Of a stretch of DNA of 64,000 nucleotides, positions 33,506-44,403 are shown in pieces. A program made the position numbers and the translations under genes. Location of the stretch: positions 1-64,000 of the forward strand of contig QKJR01000038.1 of the NCBI GenBank assembly GCA_003249215.1. Direction: 5' to 3'. The notes beneath the pieces were generated by a model. It ran no database searches and was not told the DNA's origin. It worked only from the letters and a program-made list of their open reading frames with translations. The stretch is from Rhodobacterales bacterium (GTDB taxonomy: Bacteria; Pseudomonadota; Alphaproteobacteria; Rhodobacterales; Rhodobacteraceae). Numbering within the stretch: position 1 is the first letter of the stretch; every line of letters begins with the position of its first letter.

Positions 33506-35944
33506 TCAACCGGCGCGGCGCAGCCGGAGCGCGTTGGTGACCACGAAGACCGAGGAAAAGGCCATCGCGCCCGCCGCCAGCATCGGCGAGAGGCCCGGGC
33601 CGCCGAAGGGGCGCAGCACGCCCATCGCGACCGGAATGAGCGCGGCGTTGTAGGCGAAGGCCCAGAACAGGTTCTGCTTGATGTTGCGCATGACGGCGCG
33701 CGAGAGGGTCAGCGCGCGCGCGACCGAGCGCGGATCGCCCTGCATCAGCACGACCTCGGCCGCCTCGATGGCCACATCGGTGCCGGTGCCGATGGCAAGC
33801 CCCACATCGGCCGCGGCCAGCGCCGGGGCGTCGTTGATGCCGTCGCCGACGAAGGCCACGGCGCCATGGTCGCGCAAGCCCTCGAGTGCGGCGACCTTGC
33901 CCTCTGGCAGGACCTCGGCGACGGTGCGGGCGATGCCGAGGCGGCGGGCGACGGCCTCGGCCGTCGGGCGGATATCGCCGGAGATCAGCGCGGTCTCGAC
34001 GCCTGCGGCGGTGAGGCTGGCGATGGCGTCGGGGGCGTGTTCCTTGACCGGGTCGGCGACCGCGATCAGCGCCAGAAGGCGGCCGTCATGCGCGACCCAG
34101 ATCGGGGTTTTGCCATCCTGCGCAAGGGTTTGCGCCTGTGTTGAGAGCGGCGCGGTGTCGATGCCGGCCTCGTCCAGCGCCTTGGCATTGCCGAGGATCA
34201 GCCGCGCGCCTTCGGCCTCGGCGGAGAGGCCGCGACCCGGGATCGCGCGGACGCGGCGGGCGGGAAGGGGGGCGATGCCACGGGCCTCGGCCTCGGTCAG
34301 GATCGCATGGGCCAGCGGATGTTCCGAGCGCGCCTCGGCCCCGGCGGCGAGCGCGAGCGCGCGGTCCGGATCGGCGCCCTCGGCTGCGATCAGATCGGTG
34401 AGCGCGGGGCGCCCCTCGGTCAGCGTGCCGGTCTTGTCGAAGGCCACGGTCTTCACCTCGGCCAGCCGTTGCAGTGCATCGCCGCGGCGGAAGAGGATGC
34501 CCAGTTCCGCGCCGCGCCCGGTGCCCACAAGGATCGAGACCGGCGTCGCGAGCCCCATCGCGCAGGGGCAGGCGATGATCATCACCGAGATTGCCGCGAC
34601 GAGCGCGTGGGTGAAGCCTTGACCCGCGGCCATCCAGAGCGCGAAGGTGAGCGCTGAGAGCGCCATCACCGCGGGCACGAAGACGCGGGTCACCTTGTCG
34701 ACCAGCGCCTGCACCGGCAGCTTGCCGCCCTGCGCCTCCTCGACCATGGCGATGATCCGCGAGAGCACCGTATCGGCCCCGGTCGCGGTGACGCGAAAGG
34801 CAAGCGCCGAGGCGCCGTTCACGGTGCCGCCGGTGATTTTCGCGCCCGGGGTCTTTTCGACCGGAACCGGCTCGCCGGTCAGCATGCTCTCGTCGATCCA
34901 GCCGTGGCCCTCGGTCAGCTCGCCATCGACAGGGACGCGCGCGCCGGGCGCCAGAAGGACGATATCGCCCGAGGCGAGCTCCTCGACCGGCAGCTCGACC
35001 GCGCCGCCGGGGCGTTGCACCCGCGCGGTGGCGGGGCGCAGGCCGACGAGGCGGGCGATGGCCTGGCCCGCCTGCCCCTTGGCGCGCGCCTCGAGCCAGC
35101 GGCCGACAAGGATCAGCGTGACGATGACGGCGGCGGCCTCGAAATAGACCTCGCGCGCGGAGGCGGGCAGGAGGCCCGGGGCCAGCGTGACCACCGCGGA
35201 ATAGAGGAAGGCCGCCGAGGCGCCCATCGCGACGAGCGAGTTCATCTCAGGCGCGCCGCGCAGCAAAGCGGGGAGACCGAGGCGCAGGAAGACGCGGCCC
35301 GGGAAGGCGAGCACCAGCGCGGTCAGGATCATCTGCACCCACCAGCTCGCGGTCTCGCCGATCGTGGCCATGATCAGGTGGTGGAAGCCCGGGATCAGAT
35401 GCGCGCCCATGGCGAGGATGAAGACGGGCAGGGTAAGGGCGGCTGAAATGGCGACATCGCGTTTAAGTTTTGCGGCTTCGGCCGCCTGCTTCTCAGCCAG
35501 GGGCGCGGGGGCGGCACCCGCCTGTTTCACCCGTGCGGGATAGCCCGCGGCGGTGACGATCTGCGCGAGTTCCGAAGGCGCGATGGTGCCCTGCGCATAG
35601 GCGACCTGCGCCGATTGCGTGGCGAGGTTTACCGCCGCCGAAATCACCCCCGGCGTGGCCGCCAGCGCGCGTTCGACCCTTCCCGAACAGCTCGCGCAGG
35701 TCATGCCCTCGATCTCGAGCCGCGCCTCGGCCTGCGCCACCGGATAGCCGGCCTTTTCGAGCGCCGCGGCAAGGCTGGCGGGCGTGGCCGGCGCGGTGAA
35801 ATCGACCCGGGCCGAGCGCGCCATCAGATTGGCCGCGGCCCCGGTTACCCCCGGCTCGGCGGCGAGCGCGCGCTCGACCCGGCCGGTGCAGGCGCCGCAG
35901 TGCATGCCGTCGACGATGAAGGTGGTGTGGCTCTGCTCGGTCAT
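33506..35944 (-). CDS. copA: copper-exporting P1B-type ATPase with two N-terminal metal-binding domains
   Basis: An 812-residue heavy-metal pump. Two HMA domains carry GMHCGAC (Cys16, Cys19) and GMTCASC (Cys83, Cys86). The membrane motif CPCAMGLATP is the Cu(I) site, followed by the DKTGT phosphorylation loop, SEHPLAHAI as the HP motif and GDGINDAPAL. This set is that of Cu+-ATPases that export Cu(I) from the cytosol. The start was chosen after AAAGGGG. It is divergent from a DUF2892 gene; the shared 152-bp region holds a sulfide-type palindrome. No separate copZ or cueR gene is seen beside it. Confidence 0.94.
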   Translation of the reverse strand: MTEQSHTTFIVDGMHCGACTGRVERALAAEPGVTGAAANLMARSARVDFTAPATPASLAAALEKAGYPVAQAEARLEIEGMTCASCSGRVERALAATPGVISAAVNLATQSAQVAYAQGTIAPSELAQIVTAAGYPARVKQAGAAPAPLAEKQAAEAAKLKRDVAISAALTLPVFILAMGAHLIPGFHHLIMATIGETASWWVQMILTALVLAFPGRVFLRLGLPALLRGAPEMNSLVAMGASAAFLYSAVVTLAPGLLPASAREVYFEAAAVIVTLILVGRWLEARAKGQAGQAIARLVGLRPATARVQRPGGAVELPVEELASGDIVLLAPGARVPVDGELTEGHGWIDESMLTGEPVPVEKTPGAKITGGTVNGASALAFRVTATGADTVLSRIIAMVEEAQGGKLPVQALVDKVTRVFVPAVMALSALTFALWMAAGQGFTHALVAAISVMIIACPCAMGLATPVSILVGTGRGAELGILFRRGDALQRLAEVKTVAFDKTGTLTEGRPALTDLIAAEGADPDRALALAAGAEARSEHPLAHAILTEAEARGIAPLPARRVRAIPGRGLSAEAEGARLILGNAKALDEAGIDTAPLSTQAQTLAQDGKTPIWVAHDGRLLALIAVADPVKEHAPDAIASLTAAGVETALISGDIRPTAEAVARRLGIARTVAEVLPEGKVAALEGLRDHGAVAFVGDGINDAPALAAADVGLAIGTGTDVAIEAAEVVLMQGDPRSVARALTLSRAVMRNIKQNLFWAFAYNAALIPVAMGVLRPFGGPGLSPMLAAGAMAFSSVFVVTNALRLRRAG

Positions 35945-36022: not shown

Positions 36023-36038
36023 ATTCTGCAACTTGAAT
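36023..36038. promoter_or_regulatory. ATTC-N8-GAAT operator candidate upstream of the DUF2892 gene (SqrR/BigR type)
   Basis: The palindrome ATTCTGCAACTTGAAT has perfect ATTC/GAAT arms eight bases apart. Its right end overlaps a -35 box, so binding would block the promoter. The same arms, with matching internal A, C and T positions, precede sqr. From memory, ATTC-N8-GAAT is the core reported for SqrR/BigR/YgaV persulfide-sensing repressors; this recall should be verified. Confidence 0.65.
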
Positions 36039-36061
36039 TTGTTTGGCGCCAATGCTACCTC
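36033..36061 (+). promoter_or_regulatory. candidate DUF2892-gene promoter
   Basis: TTGAAT (36033-36038) and TACCTC (36056-36061) with 17-bp spacing; expected transcription start near 36068, about 29 bases before the ATG. The -35 box lies inside the ATTC-N8-GAAT palindrome. Confidence 0.45.
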
Positions 36062-36096
36062 GGGGCCAAGCAATCCCGCCCGTCTGGAGTATTCCG

Positions 36097-36306
36097 ATGT
36101 CCCTCGACCGCATCATGTTCGCCTTCGCCGGCACGATGGTTCTGATCAGCGTCCTGCTGACCTGGTTCGTCTCGCCTTATTTCCTGTGGTTCACCGTCTT
36201 CATCGGCGCGAACCTGCTGCAATCGGCCTTCACCGGCTTCTGCCCGGCGGCGATGATCTTCGCCAAGCTCGGCTTCAAGACCGGCTGCGCATTTGAGGGC
36301 AAATAA
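36097..36306 (+). CDS. DUF2892 (YgaP-like) small membrane protein
   Basis: A 69-residue protein with two membrane helices (MFAFAGTMVLISVLL and FLWFTVFIGANLLQ) followed by the family signature QSAFTGFCPAAMIFAKLGF and a further cysteine in KTGCAF. DUF2892 occurs alone or fused to rhodanese (YgaP) and is frequently a member of sulfide/persulfide regulons. The start gives the standard short N-terminus; the open frame reaches further upstream but through the promoter. The operator-like palindrome 58 bp upstream supports sulfur-responsive control. A hairpin terminator follows. Confidence 0.9.
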   Translation: MSLDRIMFAFAGTMVLISVLLTWFVSPYFLWFTVFIGANLLQSAFTGFCPAAMIFAKLGFKTGCAFEGK

Positions 36307-36345
36307 GTCCCTGCGGGCCGCAATCCCCGGCCTTTGATCGAATGT

Positions 36346-36382
36346 GAGCGGCGGGACGAGGGTTCCGCCGCTCTTCGTTATT
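36346..36382 (+). terminator. intrinsic terminator after the DUF2892 gene
   Basis: A perfect 9-bp stem GAGCGGCGG/CCGCCGCTC with a 10-base loop, followed by TTCGTTATT. It isolates the small gene from the next one. Confidence 0.65.
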
Positions 36383-36441
36383 GAGGCGGGCGAGGGGCTT
36401 TGCTAGCCTGAGCGCCACGCCATGTCTGGGGACCGTTCACG

Positions 36442-37074
36442 ATGCACCGCCGTTTTTTGCTCACTTCCATTGCCGCCCTCGGTCTCGGGGCCGCCGCGCC
36501 TGCCCTGGCTCAGGGCACGGCGGTGAAATCGACGGCCTCCGCGCCGGGCAAGAGCGCGCCCGAGATCGAGCTGACCTCGGCGCCCGCTGGCAAATGGCCG
36601 ATCGCGCCGCAATATTACCCGGTCGAGGTGCGGGTGAAGCCCGAGCTGCCGGTGGGCTCTATCATCATCGTCTCGGACAAGTTCTTCCTCTATCACATCA
36701 TCGCCCCGGGCCGGGCAATGCGCTACGGCGTGGCGGTCGGCAAGGGCGAGCTGAAATTCCGCGGCACCGCGGTCGTGGGGCGCAAGGTCGAATGGCCGAG
36801 CTGGAAGCCGACGCCGGAGATGGTCGAGCGCAGCCCCTCGCATTACGCCAGATATGCCGAGAGCGGGATGCCCGGGGGGCCCAACAATCCGCTCGGCGCG
36901 CGGGCGATGTACCTTTATCAAAACGGGCATGACACCGCGATCCGCATCCATGGCACGACCGAGCCGAGCTCGATCGGGCATGCGGTCTCGAACGGCTGCC
37001 TGCGGATGGTGAACGATCACGTCATCGCGCTTTTCGAGCAGATCCCGGTCGGCACGCAGGTCACCGTTTACTGA
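36442..37074 (+). CDS. L,D-transpeptidase (YkuD domain)
   Basis: A 210-residue exported enzyme. The N-terminus MHRRFLLTSIAALGLG ending in PALA is a signal peptide with a twin-arginine-like start. The YkuD active site is intact: IRIHGTTEPSSIG (histidine) and HAVSNGCLRM (nucleophilic cysteine). These enzymes make 3-3 crosslinks or attach outer-membrane proteins to peptidoglycan. Its stop overlaps the selU start by one base (TGATG), so translation is coupled, though the two functions are not obviously related. Confidence 0.93.
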   Translation: MHRRFLLTSIAALGLGAAAPALAQGTAVKSTASAPGKSAPEIELTSAPAGKWPIAPQYYPVEVRVKPELPVGSIIIVSDKFFLYHIIAPGRAMRYGVAVGKGELKFRGTAVVGRKVEWPSWKPTPEMVERSPSHYARYAESGMPGGPNNPLGARAMYLYQNGHDTAIRIHGTTEPSSIGHAVSNGCLRMVNDHVIALFEQIPVGTQVTVY

Positions 37075-38126
37075 TGAAACTCACCTCGGTTGCCGAGAGT
37101 GCGGCGCTCGATTTCGATACGGTGATCGACGTGCGTTCGCCCGCCGAGTTTGCCGAGGATCACCTGCCGGGGGCGATCAACCTGCCGGTTCTCGACAATG
37201 AGGAGCGCGCCCGTGTCGGCACGATCTACAAGCAGGTCTCGCCCTTCGATGCGCGCCGGATCGGTGGTGCGCTGGTTGCGGCCAATGCCGCGCGGCATCT
37301 GCAGGGGCCCTTGGCCGACAAGCCGGGCGGATGGCGTCCGCTCGTCTATTGCTGGCGCGGCGGGCAGCGCTCGGGGTCTTTTGCGACGATCCTCAAGCAG
37401 ATCGGCTGGCGGGTGGAGCTCGTCGAAGGCGGTTACAAGGCGTGGCGCGGGCTGGTGGTCGAGGACCTGACGCGCCCGCCGGTCGCCCCAGTCGTGGTCC
37501 TCGATGGCAATACCGGCTCGGCCAAGACCGCGATCCTGCTCGCGGCGGCGGCGCAGGGGGCGCAGGTGATCGACCTCGAGGGGCTCGCCAATCACCGCGG
37601 CTCGATCTTCGGCGCGCGCCCGGGCGGGCAGCCGGCGCAGAAGGGCTTCGAGGGGCGGCTGGCGGTCGCGCTGACCGCGCTCGATCCCACGCGGCCGGTG
37701 CTGGTCGAGGCGGAGAGCTCGAAGATCGGGGATATCAATCTGCCCAAGGGGATCTGGGCCGCGATCTGTGCGGCACCCCGGATCCGGATTGTGGCGCCTT
37801 TGCCCGCACGGGCCGACTATCTGGCGCGGGCCTATGCCGATGTGGCGGCGGACCGGGCGGAACTGGCCGCGCTGATCGACAGGCTGCGGCCCTTCCATGC
37901 GGCCGAGGTGATCGAGGGCTGGCAGGCTTTCGCGGCGGCCGGTGATCTGGCGCCGCTGGCCGGCGATCTGATGGCCCGCCATTACGACCCGCGCTATGAA
38001 AAGCACCGTGCCCGCCACGGCGCGGCCGGGGCGGTGATCGCGGCGCCGAGCCTCCTGCCCGAGGCGCTGCCGGGGCTCGCGGCGCAGGTGATGGCCGCGG
38101 CCGGGGCGCTGGTTACAGCACGTTGA
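37074..38126 (+). CDS. selU: tRNA 2-selenouridine synthase
   Basis: Also called MnmH: converts 2-thiouridine at the wobble position of some tRNAs to 2-selenouridine using selenophosphate. The 350 residues begin with a rhodanese domain (DVRSPAEFAEDHLPGAINLPVLDN, catalytic YCWRGGQRSGS with the cysteine) and continue into a P-loop-like domain (VLDGNTGSAKTA) and the LVEAESSKIGDI segment. Selenophosphate would come from the SelD encoded tail to tail with it. The last 14 bp overlap the end of that gene. Confidence 0.95.
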   Translation: MKLTSVAESAALDFDTVIDVRSPAEFAEDHLPGAINLPVLDNEERARVGTIYKQVSPFDARRIGGALVAANAARHLQGPLADKPGGWRPLVYCWRGGQRSGSFATILKQIGWRVELVEGGYKAWRGLVVEDLTRPPVAPVVVLDGNTGSAKTAILLAAAAQGAQVIDLEGLANHRGSIFGARPGGQPAQKGFEGRLAVALTALDPTRPVLVEAESSKIGDINLPKGIWAAICAAPRIRIVAPLPARADYLARAYADVAADRAELAALIDRLRPFHAAEVIEGWQAFAAAGDLAPLAGDLMARHYDPRYEKHRARHGAAGAVIAAPSLLPEALPGLAAQVMAAAGALVTAR

Positions 38127-40281
38127 GGAAGGGTTCGCCTTCGGTGATCCGGCCGATCCGCACCGCCTGAATACCCTGAGCGGCGAGCGCCGAAATTGCC
38201 GTCGCGGCCTGATCCGCGGGCAAGGCGGCCAGGAGCCCGCCCGCCGTCTGCGGATCGTAGAGCAATTCGGCGCGCGGGCTTTCGGGGGCGAAGATCCGGC
38301 CCGCGAGCGCAGCGATATTCTGCGGCAGCAGGCTCGAATGATGGCCCTGCGCCGCAAGCGCCTCGGCCCCGGGCAGGAGCGGCACCGCGCTCAGCTCGAT
38401 CTCGGCGGCGGTGCCGGAGGCCTCGCAGAGATTGATCAGATGGCCCGCAAGGCCGAAGCCCGTCACATCGGTCATCGCATGGGCGAGCGGCGCGAGAATG
38501 GCGGCATCTGCGGCGAGCGGCCGGTCCATCGCGGCGAGCGCGCCCGCGACCACATCGCCCGGCGCCGCCTTGAGCATTTCGGCGGCGAGGATCACCCCGG
38601 TGCCCAGGGGTTTCGTCAGGATCAGCGCATCGCCCGGGCGCGCGCCGTCGATGCCGACGGGCGCCGCGGCAAGGCCGGTCACCGAAAACCCGAGTGAGAG
38701 CTCGGCGCCGAGGCTCGTATGCCCGCCCACGAGATCGGCGCCCGCCGCCCGGAACACGGTGCCCGCCGCGTCGAGTATCTCGGCCAGCGTGCGCGCGGCC
38801 AGCTCCTCGGTCATCCGCGGCAGGGTGACCTGCGCGAGCGCCGCCTGCGGCGCGCCCCCCATCGCCCAGATGTCGCCGAGCGCGTGGATCGCGGCGAGGC
38901 GGGCGAAGAGCCAGGGGTCCTCGATGAAGGCGCGCATGTGATCAGTGGTAAAGACTTGGCGCACATCGCCATGCGCGAGCACCGCGGCATCGTCACCCGG
39001 TTCCGAGAGGACATCGCCGCGGATCGCGCGCGGCTGGGCCGCGAGCACATCGGCGAGCGCCGCGCGCCCCATCTTCGCCCCGCAGCCGCCGCAGAGGGGC
39101 TTCGGCCCGAGCGCCTCTGCCACGCCCTCGGCGATCTCGGGCGGCAGGGCAGGGGCGGGCATCGCGGGCAGGTCGTGGACCTTTTCCATGAACCGCCGGT
39201 CGATCCGGTCCTTCCAGCGCCAGAGCCATTTGCCATCGAGCGGCAGGCGCCATTTATCGGCCACCGCGCGCTTGTCGCCGGTCGAGATCAGCTTGAGATA
39301 GTCGCGCTGCGGGTGATAGAGGCGCAGCGCCCCGGGCCGGCCCATCGCGGCCGCGCGCAGGTTCTCAAACAGCACCGGCGCCTCGCGCACCGCATAGACC
39401 CCGGCCTTGGGGCGCGGCGCATGGGCGAGATGGGCGATGTCGCCGGCGGCGAAGATCGCCGGGTCCGAGCTTTGCAGAAAAGGCGAGACGGTGACGAAGC
39501 CCTCGTGGAGCGCGAGGCCGGTCTGCGGCAGCCAGTCGGCGGGCCGGGTGGCCCCGGTGCCGAGGATGAAATCGGCGGGTTCGACACGCCCGCCTTCGAG
39601 CAGCAGCGCCCCGGCCCGCGCCTCGGTCACCCGGGCGTTTTCCTCGATCCGCACCCCGAGCCGCGCGCAATGGGCGCGCAGCCGCCCGCGCGCGCCGGGG
39701 CCGAGAAGGGCGAGCGCCTCTGGTCCCGCCTCATAGACGGTGACCGCGGCATCGGGGCGGCGATGTTTGAAAGCGAGCGCCAGCTCGACCCCGGCAACGC
39801 CCCCGCCTACGACCGCGATCCGCGCGCCGGGCGCGGCGGTGGTGGCGAAGACCTCCCAGGCATCGGCGAAGGCGTCGAGCGGTTTCGCCGGCGTCACATG
39901 CTCGGCAAAGCCCGGGATCTGCGGCATCTCGCCGGTGATCCCGGTGTCGATCGAGGCGATATCATAGGCCACGGGCGCGCGGCCGGGCACGATCACCTGC
40001 CGGCGGGCCCGGTCGATCCCCTCGGCCCGCCCGAGAATGAGCCGCGCGCCCGCGTGGCGCGCGAGCCGCACCAGATCGAGTTGCAGCGCCGCGCGCGGAT
40101 AATGCCCCGCGACATGGCCCGGCAACATGCCCGAATAGGCCGCGGTGGGCAGCGGGTTGATGACCGTCAGGCGCACACCCGGCAGCGGCTTCATCCCCCA
40201 CATCCGCAGCACGAGCGCATGCGCGTGCCCGCCGCCGATCAGCACGAGGTCGCGGGTGAGGGGCAATGCGGGCATATCCAT
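38113..40281 (-). CDS. selD: fusion of NADH-dehydrogenase-like flavoprotein with selenide, water dikinase
   Basis: A 722-residue two-domain protein. Residues 1 to about 375 are a pyridine-nucleotide-disulfide oxidoreductase-type domain: FAD motif LVLIGGGHAHALVL, NAD motif IAVVGGGVAGVELALAF and an AAGDIAHL segment near 278-285. Residues from about 390 are SelD, which makes selenophosphate from selenide and ATP; its N-terminal loop is CGGCGAK with Cys397, Cys400 and Lys403, and GDDAAVL, GGHTSLGAEL and TDVTGFGLAGHL follow. The catalytic position is cysteine, not selenocysteine. Such fusions are known; the flavin domain may deliver reduced selenium. The start follows AAAGGAG. It is convergent with selU. 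Confidence 0.95.
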   Translation of the reverse strand: MDMPALPLTRDLVLIGGGHAHALVLRMWGMKPLPGVRLTVINPLPTAAYSGMLPGHVAGHYPRAALQLDLVRLARHAGARLILGRAEGIDRARRQVIVPGRAPVAYDIASIDTGITGEMPQIPGFAEHVTPAKPLDAFADAWEVFATTAAPGARIAVVGGGVAGVELALAFKHRRPDAAVTVYEAGPEALALLGPGARGRLRAHCARLGVRIEENARVTEARAGALLLEGGRVEPADFILGTGATRPADWLPQTGLALHEGFVTVSPFLQSSDPAIFAAGDIAHLAHAPRPKAGVYAVREAPVLFENLRAAAMGRPGALRLYHPQRDYLKLISTGDKRAVADKWRLPLDGKWLWRWKDRIDRRFMEKVHDLPAMPAPALPPEIAEGVAEALGPKPLCGGCGAKMGRAALADVLAAQPRAIRGDVLSEPGDDAAVLAHGDVRQVFTTDHMRAFIEDPWLFARLAAIHALGDIWAMGGAPQAALAQVTLPRMTEELAARTLAEILDAAGTVFRAAGADLVGGHTSLGAELSLGFSVTGLAAAPVGIDGARPGDALILTKPLGTGVILAAEMLKAAPGDVVAGALAAMDRPLAADAAILAPLAHAMTDVTGFGLAGHLINLCEASGTAAEIELSAVPLLPGAEALAAQGHHSSLLPQNIAALAGRIFAPESPRAELLYDPQTAGGLLAALPADQAATAISALAAQGIQAVRIGRITEGEPFLNVL

Positions 40282-40413
40282 CGGGGGCTCCTTTGTCCCA
40301 TGGCTAGCGCGCTGCCGGCGCGGCGCCAACCGTCATTTCGTCGCGGTGGCGGGGCGGGGGATCTGTTCCTAGGGGGGCCGCGTCGCCGGCCGCGGATTTT
40401 GCCGATTCAGCCC

Positions 40414-40440
40414 TTGACGGCCCGGCGCCCGTGCAATAGT
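40414..40440 (+). promoter_or_regulatory. candidate tRNA-Met promoter
   Basis: TTGACG (40414-40419) and AATAGT (40435-40440), 15 bp apart, end 12 bases before the tRNA. Spacing is short, but the -35 is good and the position is right. Confidence 0.45.
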
Positions 40441-40452
40441 GACGCGCAACGT

Positions 40453-40529
40453 GGCTAGGTAGCTCAGTTGGTTAGAGCATGCGACTCATAATCGCAGGGT
40501 CGGGGGTTCGAGTCCCCCCCTCGCCACCA
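40453..40529 (+). tRNA. tRNA-Met (anticodon CAU), elongator type
   Basis: A 77-nt cloverleaf with encoded CCA. D stem GCTC/GAGC, anticodon stem TGCGA/TCGCA with loop CTCATAA (anticodon CAU), T stem GGGGG/CCCCC with loop TTCGAGT and discriminator A73. The acceptor stem GGCTAGG/CCTCGCC pairs except at the fourth position, where U4 faces C69; CCTAGCC would pair fully. CAU could also belong to a lysidine-modified tRNA-Ile, but the body resembles elongator tRNA-Met of alphaproteobacteria. Confidence 0.93.
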
Positions 40530-40565
40530 CTTCCCCCTTCTTCGACATTCGATCCGATCCGGGAC

Positions 40566-40596
40566 CGCGATCGCGCGGCATGATCGCGCCGGTTTT
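40566..40596 (+). terminator. candidate terminator downstream of the tRNA
   Basis: A 7-bp stem CGCGATC/GATCGCG with a 9-base loop, followed by CCGGTTTTT. It lies in the 258-bp gap between the tRNA and the thiolase gene, where I see no other feature except the ribosome site of the thiolase. Confidence 0.45.
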
Positions 40597-40787
40597 TGCG
40601 GTTATCTGCGGCCGGGCCCGCCGGCTGCGGGCGCGAAAATCCGGCCTTGGGCGTAGGGCCCGATACACTTCCGCGTAGAACCTCCACTGCCGTTCGGCCG
40701 CGCCTTTGTCCGTCGCGGCCCCATCCGTGCCGGGCCGCGCGCGAGGCCCCGGCACCCAGTCGCCCCGCGGGGCATCGGAGGAGAGAC

Positions 40788-41960
40788 ATGACATCACCGA
40801 TCTACATCACCGGCTCGGGCCACACCCGTTTCGGACGCCTGAGCGAGACGCTCGAGGAGCTGATCGTCGAGGCCGCGCGCGAGGCGATCGCCGAGGCCGC
40901 GATCGACCCCGCCGAGATCGACGCGGTCTTTCTGGGGCAGTTCAATTCGGGGCTGGTGCCCGATGCCTTCGCCGCCTCGCTGATCCTGCAGGCCGATCCG
41001 GCGCTGCGGTTCAAACCCGCCACGCGCTGCGAAAATGCCTGTGGTTCGGGGGCGGCGGCGATTCATGGTGCGCTCAACCTGATCCGGGCGGGGCAGGCGA
41101 AAACCGTGCTCGTCGTCGGCGCCGAGAAGATGACCCATCGCAGCACGCCCGAGGTGACGGCGGCCCTCGCCGGGGCGGGCTATCAGAACGATCCGGTCGA
41201 GGCCGGGCTCAGCTTCCCGCAGGTCTTCGCGCTGGCGGCGCAGGGCTATGCCGCGCGTTACGGCAGCCCCTATGACGCTATGGCGCGGATCGCCGCCAAG
41301 AACCACGCCCATGCGATGGCCAATCCGCTGGCGCAGATGCACAAGGCGATGCCCTATGAGTTCTGCCGCGAGGTGAGCGAAAAGAACCCGATGATCGCGC
41401 CGCCGCTGCGGCTTTCGGATTGCTCGCTCGTGACCGACGGGGCGGCGGCGGTGGTGCTGCGTTCGGCCGATGCGGCACAGGACGACGCGCGCCGGGTGCG
41501 GATCGCGGCGGCCGAGCATGTGTCGGATTTCCTGCCGCTTTCGCGGCGCGATTTCGTGGCTTTCGAGGGGCCCGAGCGGGCGATCGGGGCGGCCTATCGG
41601 GCGGCGGGGATCACGGTCGCGGATCTCGATTTCGCCGAGGTGCATGATTGCTTCACCCCCGCCGAGCTCTTGATCTACGAGGCGATGGGGCTTGCGCCCA
41701 AGGGGCAGGGCGCGCGCGCGCTCGAGGAGGGCACCGTGATGGCGGGCGGGCGCACGCCGGTCAACCTCTCGGGGGGGCTCAAGGCCAAGGGCCACCCGGT
41801 CGGCGCGAGTGGCGTGTCGATGCATGCGCTGGCCTTCCGGCAGTTGACCGGGCAGGCGGGCGAGATGCAGCGCGCGGGCGCGGAATGGGGGCTTGCCTTC
41901 AACATGGGCGGCGCCGCTGTGGCGAATTATGCCACGCTGCTCAATGCCGACCGGGCCTGA
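40788..41960 (+). CDS. thiolase-family acyl-CoA acetyltransferase (SCP2-thiolase type)
   Basis: A 390-residue thiolase-fold enzyme. The nucleophilic cysteine is in CENACGSGAAAI near residue 85. The histidine-cysteine motif is HDCFT rather than the classical C-terminal CGGG pattern, followed by GHPVGASGV. This layout matches the SCP2-thiolase/lipid-transfer-like subgroup, which cleaves or forms beta-ketoacyl-CoA. A GGAGGAGAG site precedes the ATG. It stands alone, convergent with the DUF455 gene, so the pathway is not indicated by neighbours. Confidence 0.9.
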   Translation: MTSPIYITGSGHTRFGRLSETLEELIVEAAREAIAEAAIDPAEIDAVFLGQFNSGLVPDAFAASLILQADPALRFKPATRCENACGSGAAAIHGALNLIRAGQAKTVLVVGAEKMTHRSTPEVTAALAGAGYQNDPVEAGLSFPQVFALAAQGYAARYGSPYDAMARIAAKNHAHAMANPLAQMHKAMPYEFCREVSEKNPMIAPPLRLSDCSLVTDGAAAVVLRSADAAQDDARRVRIAAAEHVSDFLPLSRRDFVAFEGPERAIGAAYRAAGITVADLDFAEVHDCFTPAELLIYEAMGLAPKGQGARALEEGTVMAGGRTPVNLSGGLKAKGHPVGASGVSMHALAFRQLTGQAGEMQRAGAEWGLAFNMGGAAVANYATLLNADRA

Positions 41961-41983
41961 GAGGGCGTATCCCGCCGCGGCGC

Positions 41984-42832
41984 CTAGCGCAGCGCGGCGG
42001 GCGTTTCCTCGGCGAGCGGCCAGTAGAAATCGGGCGGCAGCCCGGCTTCGGCGCGCTTCTCCTCGTTGAAAGGGGGCTTCAACTGGCCATGGAAATAGCG
42101 CCGCACGAGGGCGTGGAAGCTCTCCTTCGGGTCCATCTCGTGGCGGCCACAGAGGAAGTGGAACCATTTCGAGCCATAGGCGACATGGCTCACCTCTTCG
42201 GCATAGATCACCTCGAGCGCCGCGATCACCTGCGGCAGGTCGGCCTTGCGGAAGATCTCGATCATCCCCGGCGTCACATCGAGCCCGCGCGCCTCGAGCA
42301 CCATCGGCACCACCGTCAGCCGCCCGATCAGATCGCCCGCCGTATCCTCGGCCGCGCGCCACATCCCGGCATGGGCCGCAAGCGCGCCGTAATGGCTGCC
42401 GAGATCGTTCAGGCAGGCCTCGATCAGGCGGAAATGCTTGCTCTCCTCGTCGGCCGATTTCACCCAGTCGTCGTAGAAGCCCATCGGCATCTTCGTGTCG
42501 GTGAAGCGCGCGATGATGTCCCAATGCAGGTCGACGGCGTTGAGTTCGATATGCGCCACGGCATGCAACAAGGCGATGCGTCCCGCGGGCGAGCCGGGGC
42601 GGCGGCGCGGCACGTCGCGCGGATCAAGCAGCTCGGGCGCCTCGGGGCGGGCGGGGAAATCGGGGGGCGTGGCCTGCCCCACCGGCATCGGGGTGCCCGC
42701 CGCACGGCCCGCGAACCAGCGTGCGGCATGGGCACGCGATTTCGCGGTCTTTTCCATCGGATCGCCGGTGGTAAGAACGTCGACCGCACAGGCGGCGAGG
42801 GTTTCGGGCTGGGGCGGGGCGCTTTCGGTCAT
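41984..42832 (-). CDS. DUF455 ferritin-like protein
   Basis: A 282-residue protein of the DUF455 family, ferritin-like four-helix bundles. Metal-ligand patterns are visible: HAVAHIELNAVDLHWD, then KSADEESKHFRL, then LEVIYAEEVSHVAYG, which supply Glu and His for a di-iron site. The N-terminus ends in a Pro/Ala-rich link. The function of the family is not established; a hydroxylase or oxidase role has been guessed from the fold. Between its start and the sqr stop lie three consecutive hairpins. Confidence 0.88.
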   Translation of the reverse strand: MTESAPPQPETLAACAVDVLTTGDPMEKTAKSRAHAARWFAGRAAGTPMPVGQATPPDFPARPEAPELLDPRDVPRRRPGSPAGRIALLHAVAHIELNAVDLHWDIIARFTDTKMPMGFYDDWVKSADEESKHFRLIEACLNDLGSHYGALAAHAGMWRAAEDTAGDLIGRLTVVPMVLEARGLDVTPGMIEIFRKADLPQVIAALEVIYAEEVSHVAYGSKWFHFLCGRHEMDPKESFHALVRRYFHGQLKPPFNEEKRAEAGLPPDFYWPLAEETPAALR

Positions 42833-42879
42833 GGCGGGACCCTATCGCAGCCGTTCGCTGTGCGGAAGCGGCATGAGAA

Positions 42880-42950
42880 AGGCGGGCATTGCGCCCGCCT
42901 CTCGCCCGCCTCGGCGGGCTGCCCCGTTTCGGATGCGGCCGATCGGCCGC
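42880..42950. terminator. three consecutive GC-rich hairpins downstream of sqr
   Basis: Hairpin A AGGCGGGC/GCCCGCCT with loop ATTGC (42880-42900), hairpin B GCCCGCC/GGCGGGC with a two-base loop (42904-42919), and the perfect 16-bp palindrome GCGGCCGATCGGCCGC (42935-42950). All lie in the 135 bases between sqr and the DUF455 gene, both transcribed leftward. They probably end sqr transcription; no long T-tract is present. Confidence 0.55.
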
Positions 42951-42967
42951 ACCCGCCTCCTCGGGGC

Positions 42968-44251
42968 TTATCCCTTTCTGGTCGCCTTGAGCTTGTCGAT
43001 CCCGAGCATCTTCATCGCGAATTTCTCGTAGAAGGTTTCCGAGGTGCCCTTGCGCAGCTTGTGCATGAAATAGCGCTCGAACCCTTCCTTGGCCCAATGC
43101 ACCCATTTCCCCTGGGCCGACCAGTTCACGTTGCGCGGCGGGATCTGCGGCTGGGCGACGAAGGCGATGCCCTGATCGCCGAAGTCCGCCAGACAGACCG
43201 CGTTCCAGGTGCCGATCTCGTCGGGCTCTTGGCCCCGCACGAGATTGCCGATGTTATGGGCCGTGGCGGTCACCATGCTCTCGATCATGAAGCCGGTCTT
43301 CGGCACGCCGACCGGCACGGGCGTGCCGCCCACCGGCGGGATCGCGACGCAGACGCCGACCGCGAAGACATTGGGGAAGGTCGGGTTGCGCTGATATTTG
43401 TCGACGATGGTGAAGCCGCGCGGGTTCGACAGGCCTTCGATGCCCGAGACCGCCGGAATGCCGCGGAAGGCGGGCAGCATCATCGCATAGCCGAAGGGCA
43501 TTTCCTTCACGCCCTTGACCGAGCCGTCATCGGCGATCTCCTCGACGAACATCTTGCCGTCTTCGACCTTCTGCACCTTGCACGAGGTCATCCATTTGAT
43601 GTGCTTGTCGCGCAGGTTCGCTTCCATCAGCCCCTTGGTATCGCCCACCCCGTCGAGGCCCAGATGGCCGACATAGGGCTCGGAGGTGATGAAGGTCATC
43701 GGCACCTGATCGCGGATCTTCATCTTGCGCAGCGCGGTATCGAGGATGAAGGTGAATTCATAGGCCGGGCCGTAGCAGCTCGCGCCCTGAACCGCGCCGA
43801 TGATGATCGGCCCCGGGTTCTTGCAGAAAGCTTCGAACGCCCCGCGCGCGGCCTCGGCATGGTCCACGTGGCAGATCGACTGGGTAAACCCCTCGGGGCC
43901 GAAGCCCTCGATCTCGTCGAAGGCCAGTTCCGGGCCGGTCGCGATCACGATGTAATCGTAATCGACCGAGCGCCCGTCGACGAGCTCGACCCGGTTCTCG
44001 GTGGCGTGCAGTTTCGCGGCGGCGACCGGGATGAACTCGATCCCCTTGCGCTTCATCGTCGGTTCCAGATCGACGGTGATATCCTTGCGATCCCGCCAGC
44101 CGACCGCCACCCAGGGGTTCGACGGCACGAAATGATATTTCGGATCCTTGGTGATGACGGTGATCTTGTCTTCCTTGCGCACCGTCTCGCGCAATTCATA
44201 GGCCATGATGGCGCCGCCGAGCCCGGCGCCCAGAACCACGATATGAGCCAT
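42968..44251 (-). CDS. sqr: sulfide:quinone oxidoreductase
   Basis: A membrane-bound flavoprotein that oxidises sulfide to polysulfide or sulfur and reduces quinone. The 427 residues start with the FAD motif VVLGAGLGGAIMAYEL. Three cysteines shown to be needed in the Rhodobacter capsulatus enzyme are present at the same numbers: Cys127 (SICHVD), Cys159 (GASCYGPAYEF) and Cys353 (NAVCLADFGD). The C-terminal amphipathic helices (HWAKEGFERYFMHKLRKG) suit peripheral membrane attachment. The start follows GGGAGGGGAG. An ATTC-N8-GAAT palindrome lies over the promoter, so sulfide induction through an SqrR-type repressor is likely. Confidence 0.95.
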   Translation of the reverse strand: MAHIVVLGAGLGGAIMAYELRETVRKEDKITVITKDPKYHFVPSNPWVAVGWRDRKDITVDLEPTMKRKGIEFIPVAAAKLHATENRVELVDGRSVDYDYIVIATGPELAFDEIEGFGPEGFTQSICHVDHAEAARGAFEAFCKNPGPIIIGAVQGASCYGPAYEFTFILDTALRKMKIRDQVPMTFITSEPYVGHLGLDGVGDTKGLMEANLRDKHIKWMTSCKVQKVEDGKMFVEEIADDGSVKGVKEMPFGYAMMLPAFRGIPAVSGIEGLSNPRGFTIVDKYQRNPTFPNVFAVGVCVAIPPVGGTPVPVGVPKTGFMIESMVTATAHNIGNLVRGQEPDEIGTWNAVCLADFGDQGIAFVAQPQIPPRNVNWSAQGKWVHWAKEGFERYFMHKLRKGTSETFYEKFAMKMLGIDKLKATRKG

Positions 44252-44304
44252 GTTGTCTCCCCTCCCTGCGGGTCTGGGCTGTCGGCCCACCCGCCTCTGC
44301 ATGC

Positions 44305-44320
44305 ATTCGTATACCTGAAT
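44305..44320. promoter_or_regulatory. ATTC-N8-GAAT operator candidate upstream of sqr (SqrR/BigR type)
   Basis: ATTCGTATACCTGAAT: perfect ATTC/GAAT arms eight bases apart, 54 bp from the sqr start and across the -10 region of its promoter. It shares arms plus the internal pattern (A, C and T at spacer positions 5, 6 and 8) with the palindrome upstream of the DUF2892 gene. Confidence 0.7.
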
Positions 44321-44340
44321 ATGTCTCCATCACCTGTCAA
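44312..44340 (-). promoter_or_regulatory. candidate sqr promoter
   Basis: A perfect -35 box TTGACA on the minus strand (44340-44335). The -10 region, 17-21 bp further (CAGGTA to TATACG), falls inside the operator palindrome. Confidence 0.5.
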
Positions 44341-44376: not shown

Positions 44377-44403
44377 AAAAAAGGGGCGCCGGGGCGCCCC
44401 TTT
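44377..44403 (-). terminator. intrinsic terminator of the OmpA-family gene
   Basis: An 11-bp perfect stem AAAGGGGCGCC/GGCGCCCCTTT with a two-base loop, 20 bases after the stop and followed on the minus strand by a run of T. It separates this gene from the divergent-side sqr promoter. Confidence 0.8.

Follow-up and report, generated by a model that had tools for sequence, protein, structure and literature searches.

Two ATTC-N8-GAAT palindromes as probable operators of an SqrR-type sulfur-sensing repressor in a Rhodobacterales genome

Introduction

The first 64,000 nucleotides of contig QKJR01000038.1 (assembly GCA_003249215.1, Rhodobacterales bacterium, Rhodobacteraceae), hereafter the window (C68:1-64000), contain two perfect ATTC-N8-GAAT palindromes, one before a gene for a small DUF2892 membrane protein and the other before sqr, which encodes a sulfide:quinone oxidoreductase. 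The locus raises the question of whether the two copies are operators of one sulfur-responsive repressor or a chance recurrence of a loose pattern. An earlier note, made from the DNA letters, had assigned the core to SqrR/BigR/YgaV-type repressors. The two sites are very probably landing sites of this known sulfur-sensing repressor type, which governs genes for sulfide detoxification, and we put at about 0.9 the probability that a single ArsR-family repressor of the SqrR type, encoded on another contig (C46) of the same genome, has both as its operators, with binding carried over by analogy from Rhodobacter capsulatus.

ATTC-N8-GAAT has been described as the deduced SqrR site of R. capsulatus and resembles a sequence in the footprint on the E. 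coli ygaV promoter; the YgaV-bound katG promoter lacks it (PMC9774250).

Results and discussion

An exact pattern search of the window returned two matches and no others, at 36,023-36,038 and 44,305-44,320, as the earlier note had placed them. The first (plus strand, AC-ATTC-N8-GAAT-TT) lies within the 152-bp gap between the divergent genes copA and DUF2892, and the second (minus strand) lies 53 bp 5' of the ATG of sqr. The DUF2892 gene (36,097-36,306, plus strand) encodes a 69-aa YgaP-like transmembrane protein with a TGFCPA motif (Pfam PF11127, E 4.8e-13), and the Cys of TG-x-CP was read in 30 of 30 homologues (28 by pattern, two as TGICP). The sqr gene (42,968-44,251, minus strand) encodes a protein of 427 aa, 67-95% identical to those of the 80 relatives' loci retained for comparison. 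Its name rests on PDB matches (3sz0, E 9.9e-151, residues 2-423), naming by NCBIfam having failed (SQR_III, 105 bits against a cut-off of 525).

Conservation was assessed in relatives of the two window genes and of trxC, which encodes thioredoxin-2. The sqr sample comprised the best 80 of 584 loci of relatives of the oxidoreductase, with 300 bases 5' of sqr (less in two loci at contig ends). The motif at gap 8 was present in 13 of the 80 upstream regions, while each of the 20 other spacings between 0 and 20 was present in 0-2; over the entire fetched stretches, gap 8 gave 31 occurrences and other spacings 4-13. DUF2892 was matched in 43 of 149 sampled family genomes (E <= 1e-4), and the gap-8 motif preceded it in 20 of the 30 best loci (19 of 29 without the own genome), compared with 0-1 for other spacings. 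Among the 30 best trxC loci, drawn from 71 genomes, the motif preceded the gene in 13 of 29 relatives, again with 0-1 for other spacings.

The 32 relatives' sites before DUF2892 (19) and sqr (13), taken without the own genome, served as a training set. Their arms and gap are constant and their spacers diverge widely, some Mesorhizobium-type rows being mutually close. On the left flank, A stands at -2 in 29 of 32 and C or T at -1 in 30 of 32; the right flank is a weaker mirror, with A or G directly after GAAT in 20 of 32 (T in the remaining 12, C in none), followed by T in 24 of 32. The extension of the consensus thus lies outside the arms, as AY-ATTC-N8-GAAT with T favoured two bases further on. 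The earlier note had instead read an inner consensus, AC(C/T)T. The two spacers do agree at positions 5, 6 and 8 on the plus strand, but sqr lies on the minus strand and the spacer in its direction reads AGGTATAC, so AC(C/T)T is not common to both in gene orientation and was rejected.

A symmetrised 24-position matrix built from the 32 sites was used to score the 19 exact gap-8 sites of the own genome (3,168,816 bases, 102 contigs, 81.93% complete). The highest scores were obtained before a rhodanese gene (34.5 bits), an RND efflux operon (34.0), sqr (30.0), trxC (29.4), a second SQR-like flavoprotein (29.3), an octaheme cytochrome (28.7) and DUF2892 (28.1). These seven promoter sites, at 28.1-34.5 bits, are well separated from the seven sites in coding regions, at -13.6 to 12.7 bits. 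Intermediate scores were given by sites before an MBL-fold protein (20.9) and a second RND adaptor gene (19.3), and low ones by those of an OAH sulfhydrylase (11.4), xseB (9.9) and a peroxiredoxin (2.8). Within the window, the two palindromes alone exceeded 13 bits. In relatives, 25 of 79 sqr loci scored at least 20 bits, including the 13 that built the matrix. Of the ten DUF2892 loci without an exact site, five had a near match of at least 19.9 bits and five scored below zero; three of these last lie directly 3' of sqr and one 3' of trxC, and such sqr- or trxC-linked loci could be served by an operator further upstream.

A sequence-only covariance model trained on the same 32 sites was run on the 3.17-Mb genome at E <= 10. 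It returned ten rows at seven places, all 5' of genes and identical to the top seven of the matrix; apart from sqr and DUF2892, the training families, the other five precede genes of families that the training set did not include. A half-swapped control model, made from the same 32 sites with composition and both tetramers kept, returned no match in the own genome. The model gives only approximate E-values, and its matches are individually weak (best 0.019 in the own genome), so the weight rests on the set. In three relatives the model gave 17 rows at nine places, namely DUF2892 three times (all in the training set), an RND operon three times, sqr, the rhodanese/uvrA gap and a sulfur-transport gene. 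The last of these, in genome G016 (L262), is a Sulf_transp gene by Pfam, and the gene after it reads as similar. Five own-genome candidates (peroxiredoxin, OAH sulfhydrylase, xseB, MBL-fold protein and second RND adaptor) were not returned by the model and are not counted as firm targets. The MBL-fold protein is lactonase-like but below the lactonase cut-off, and the peroxiredoxin (Redoxin-family) gene has exact arms 16 bp upstream. The second RND adaptor gene passes RND_mfp, and its counterpart site in the sister genome G046 scores 27.1 bits.

The predicted targets in the whole genome are therefore sqr, DUF2892 (divergent from copA), the RND efflux operon, rhodanese (divergent from uvrA), thioredoxin-2, the second SQR-like flavoprotein and an octaheme cytochrome of the tetrathionate-reductase family. 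The top-scoring of the 19 sites lies in the gap between the rhodanese gene (L005:1007-1411, minus strand, by Pfam) and uvrA (L005:1658-3016, plus strand); this pair, with a site, recurs in G046 and G114. The RND operon encodes an ACR_tran pump together with an adaptor that clears the RND_mfp cut-off, and TrxC scores 135 bits against its NCBIfam cut-off of 125. The flavoprotein (L003:1536-2900, plus strand, contig C16) has its own operator and is taken as a second SQR-like enzyme because its closest solved relatives are mitochondrial sulfide:quinone oxidoreductases (PDB, E 6.2e-63), although it falls below the type III SQR model cut-off (196 against 525 bits). Its N-terminus is of twin-arginine type by reading. 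The octaheme cytochrome (L023:1705-3243, plus strand, operator L023:1645-1660) passes TIGR04315 (557 against 375 bits) and is present in 11 of 149 family genomes. Its operator is only partially conserved, with three exact sites and six of at least 15 bits upstream among 12 loci from other genomes, one of them cut by a contig end.

Several of these partners are joined in the operons of relatives. An MFP/RND operon lies 3' of DUF2892 in 8 of the 30 loci (L114, L118, L119, L126, L133, L135, L137, L139), sqr lies 5' of it in three (L123, L137, L139) and trxC in three (L116, L120, L128), giving 12 distinct loci in which DUF2892 adjoins one of the three. By a simple motif search, many of the 80 sqr loci have an RND gene end just 5' of sqr or an RND gene a few kb 3'. 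In the own genome these partners (sqr, DUF2892, the RND operon, trxC) lie apart from one another, and each has its own operator. The sister genome G046 has 19 exact sites, of which 16 were examined (15 with loci and the DUF2892 site, L111); seven precede sqr, trxC, rhodanese, both RND adaptor genes, DUF2892 and a sulfhydrylase-like gene, and nine lie elsewhere.

The earlier note had placed the regulator outside the window, and an ArsR-family protein with two conserved cysteines was indeed found on contig C46. Seven HTH_5 matches were obtained in the genome at E <= 0.01, five of them above the cut-off, and one of these is SqrR-like (C46, about 128,670-128,993, minus strand; HTH_5 39.6 bits against a cut-off of 22; PDB 6o8k, E 3.9e-49). 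Of the solved structures, SqrR is the nearest to this ArsR/SmtB winged-helix protein. It shares 81 of 103 residues with R. capsulatus SqrR, and three cysteines are common to the two proteins, including both sensing cysteines and the N-terminal one; we take their SqrR numbers to be C9, C41 and C107. The protein also matches BigR in the PDB (E 1.9e-20), and the NCBIfam name BigR (NF040642) was rejected for it, at 105.1 bits against a cut-off of 155. Related regulators (E <= 1e-15) occur in 129 of 149 family genomes, often two per genome; the own genome and G046, the latter rated 100% complete, have a single one. The regulator gene adjoins a YeeE-type sulfur-transport gene and sox genes, and an operator-bearing RND operon starts about 6 kb away. 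SoxX, SoxY and SoxZ pass their NCBIfam cut-offs; soxS and soxV were named by order and reading only, NCBIfam giving one no family and the other a score below cut-off. The YeeE-type gene lies directly 3' of the regulator gene (L028:7082-8149, minus strand; Pfam Sulf_transp; TsuA model 55 bits against a cut-off of 400).

The orthologue, the gap-8 conservation and a gene set of sulfide, persulfide, thiol and efflux functions together support the SqrR-type assignment made in the earlier note. It holds because of the evidence from relatives, the genome-wide set and the regulator, and not because of the chance estimate that accompanied it. The sites, their conservation, the gene set, and the regulator's identity and cysteines are established here; by sequence criteria they make up a conserved regulon of the SqrR type, a kind already described.

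If the pattern were merely a loose eight-base one, two copies in 64 kb would be meaningless, and the copy number does agree with this. Dinucleotide shuffles of the window held 0.71 sites on average and at least two in 18 of 100, so that the expectation of far fewer than one chance occurrence was wrong, and the site count, unremarkable by this measure, was dropped as an argument. Spacings 0-20 together gave 271 sites in the whole genome, with 19 at gap 8 against an average of 12.6 for the other 20 spacings (Poisson P about 0.055), and 7 of the 19 lie inside coding sequence. In the genome-wide scan that had been proposed, 12 of 19 copies are non-coding, and the seven coding copies score at most 12.7 bits. 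Gaps 9 and 10 gave 17 sites, 15 of them with loci examined, of which 12 were inside and three outside coding sequence (non-coding share 12/19 against 3/15, Fisher one-sided P 0.014); by reading, the three lie in a regulator/ilvC gap, a LysR/transporter gap and one unclear place, none of them sulfur-linked. Genes at the genome-wide sites were called with a codon-usage script, and L010 and L009, flagged as inside through an over-long open reading frame and a low-scoring one, were hand-counted as promoter sites. A backward-read motif (2 sites against 19) was set aside as a control, its arms being rarer words, and the spacing control was preferred. What goes beyond chance is the position, flanks and conservation of the sites, not their number: conservation is specific to gap 8 before three gene families, the relatives' sites are not near-identical outside the Mesorhizobium-type rows, the relatives' model led to seven places before regulon-like genes while its swapped control led to none, and no third site in the window exceeds 13 bits. 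Coincidence is hardly credible in view of this.

Two other readings accept the operators as real in whole or in part. The first palindrome might belong mainly to copper export, since it lies 78 bp before copA (33,506-35,944, minus strand; a heavy-metal P-type ATPase with HMA domains, Pfam E1-E2_ATPase and HMA in two stretches), three relatives share the divergent pair with the own genome, and the own genome encodes two further ArsR-like proteins; a copper-responsive or other ArsR-type regulator would then read the site, with DUF2892 a bystander. However, the site precedes DUF2892 in 19 of 29 relatives and copA is there in only 3 of the 29, and DUF2892 adjoins sqr, trxC or the RND operon in 12 of 30 loci, making this improbable; copA may share the operator with DUF2892. 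A less remote, though still unlikely, reading is that the bound protein is better named SoxR, a single sox-side regulator running sox and sulfide stress together. Beyond the position of the gene beside soxX, soxY and soxZ and the single regulator in the own genome and G046, a 64-row tree has a clade of 32 rows (support 98/95) that unites the own protein and R. capsulatus SqrR with all 19 sox-linked regulators and leaves out 27 of 28 sqr- or RND-linked rows. A degenerate site of 23.5 bits precedes the own soxX, and sites of 20.5-27.5 bits precede soxX in four other genomes; in a fifth stretch, L227, a 21-bit site is present and soxX was not matched. Against this, each of the soxX sites lacks at least one exact arm, and the model did not return the own one at E <= 10. 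In G046 the regulator is retained along with much of the regulon, yet the 19 kb surrounding the regulator gave no match to soxS, soxV or soxX, the rest of G046 not having been searched for sox. The tree, built on 101 columns with long branches, the G046 protein entered twice and best-scoring loci as family rows, is a lead, clade membership being partly a matter of row selection. In this family SqrR and the sox-linked SoxR may form a single group of orthologues, so that the choice between them is more a question of naming than of mechanism.

Several observations weigh against the preferred reading of both palindromes as SqrR-type operators. The exact site is found in only 13 of 80 sqr loci, and the counts come from relatives that share descent and cannot be treated as independent. 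Across the genome, the bare motif shows only a mild excess (19 against 12.6). The matrix leans to AT-rich, hence intergenic, DNA, and the swapped control covers the model, not single scores. The peroxiredoxin, a published SqrR target, has a weak site here (2.8 bits), and the peroxiredoxin, rhodanese and flavoproteins were equated with R. capsulatus genes (rcc00528, rcc01557) by family, not orthology. Finally, a strict sigma-70 scan called no promoter at either site. The earlier note had described the first palindrome as overlapping the -35 of DUF2892 and the second the -10 region of sqr, and such elements can be read by eye: TTGAAT at 36,034-36,039 in the first case, and in the second a possible -35 of sqr, TTGACA at 44,335-44,340 (minus strand; TTGACA or TTGAC also lies upstream in several relatives), from which a 17-bp spacer (TTGACA read 44340-44335) would put the -10 inside the operator.

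The closest known system is the SqrR regulon of R. capsulatus, which has the same operator, a close regulator with both cysteines and sites before sqr, rhodanese and trxC (PMC9995734, PMC10044876, PMC9143464). Genes for a peroxiredoxin, SQR, a sulfurtransferase, a rhodanese and a flavin disulfide reductase rise more than 10-fold there with sulfide and without SqrR, sqr and the rhodanese gene rcc01557 being SqrR-dependent (PMC9995734), and trxC rises 22-fold under the same two conditions (PMC10044876). A primer printed in the latter paper shows that R. capsulatus trxC has a perfect site, ATTCCGCAACGCGAAT, directly 5' of its ATG, which scores 25.3 bits with a matrix trained without any trxC site. 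The sqr, rhodanese and trxC genes of that regulon are all preceded by sites in the present genome (SQR identified by PDB, rhodanese by Pfam, TrxC by NCBIfam). Unlike in R. capsulatus, the regulator here stands beside sox genes. The peroxiredoxin site is weak here, and DUF2892, the octaheme cytochrome, the RND operon and the second SQR-like flavoprotein are predicted targets beyond those published for R. capsulatus.

SoxR of Paracoccus, Pseudaminobacter and Hyphomicrobium is alike in sox position, two cysteines and sulfane-sulfur sensing (PMC10451225, PMC12423496), and in Hyphomicrobium its sites have been described in sox clusters and also in the shdr region (PMC10451225). In contrast to published SoxR, the strong operators here precede sulfide and persulfide genes, and the soxX site is degenerate. 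Such regulators have been linked by neighbourhood to sqr, sox, rhodanese, RND and YeeE genes (PMC12423496). BigR of Xylella and Agrobacterium belongs to the same ArsR subfamily and, unlike the present regulator, controls the bigR operon, which encodes a sulfur transferase/dioxygenase (PMC5823870). E. coli YgaV is an SqrR/BigR homologue with an ATTC-N8-GAAT-like footprint, and ygaP of the ygaVP operon names the Pfam family of DUF2892 (PMC9774250).

Binding, bridge chemistry, the direction of regulation and the reset by TrxC are inferred from R. capsulatus work, in which formation of a polysulfide bridge in SqrR, releasing DNA, was reported (PMC9995734) and TrxC reduced the bridge (PMC10044876). 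By analogy, a repressor dimer would occupy AY-ATTC-N8-GAAT over the promoters in the absence of sulfane sulfur and block RNA polymerase. Oxidation of sulfide would yield persulfide or polysulfide, and a polysulfide bridge would join the two conserved cysteines. The bridged repressor would then leave the DNA, allowing expression of sqr, DUF2892, the RND pump, rhodanese and the other genes. Thioredoxin-2, under its own operator, would return the switch to its starting state by reducing the bridge, and the induced SQR, rhodanese and TrxC would adjust and reset the signal.

The motif is now a conserved predicted operator supported by sequence tests, and the sharper consensus AY-ATTC-N8-GAAT could help to recognise the persulfide regulon in DNA sequences throughout the Rhodobacteraceae. 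New relative to the published systems are DUF2892, the octaheme cytochrome and possibly sox as predicted targets, with the only detected regulator beside the sox genes. A literature search found no paper tying DUF2892 to sulfide and ArsR regulators. A predicted operator on the 69-residue DUF2892 gene and on the octaheme cytochrome gene makes a role of both in sulfide stress directly testable, and a single orthologous group comprising SqrR and sox-linked SoxR in this family is suggested. More tentatively, one sulfane-sulfur repressor beside sox, orthologous to R. capsulatus SqrR, might unite persulfide stress (two SQR-type enzymes, DUF2892, RND pumps, rhodanese, TrxC) with thiosulfate oxidation (sox) and add the octaheme cytochrome. 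In this picture DUF2892 and the RND pump would be undescribed partners in persulfide/polysulfide transport; the partner genes are joined in relatives' operons but stand apart here, each with an operator, and therefore point to such a partnership.

Neighbouring genes

In the present genome DUF2892 is the membrane part alone, in contrast to E. coli YgaP, which carries a rhodanese domain; the rhodanese here is a separate gene with its own operator. Downstream of the DUF2892 gene lies a terminator-like hairpin (36,346-36,373, plus strand; two terminator-like sites against 0.7 expected from shuffles), and a further one (44,380-44,403, strand not assigned, terminator scan) separates an OmpA-family gene from the sqr promoter region. 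A DUF455 gene (41,984-42,832, minus strand; Pfam, E 2e-95) follows sqr on the same strand, and its co-transcription with sqr is possible from the arrangement. Between the two operators, a fusion of an FAD oxidoreductase and SelD (38,113-40,278, minus strand) passes the TIGR03169 and TIGR00476 cut-offs and is convergent with the tRNA 2-selenouridine synthase gene mnmH (37,074-38,126, plus strand). The matrix scan of the window found no site above 13 bits in this region, and the ends of the two genes overlap by 14 bases.

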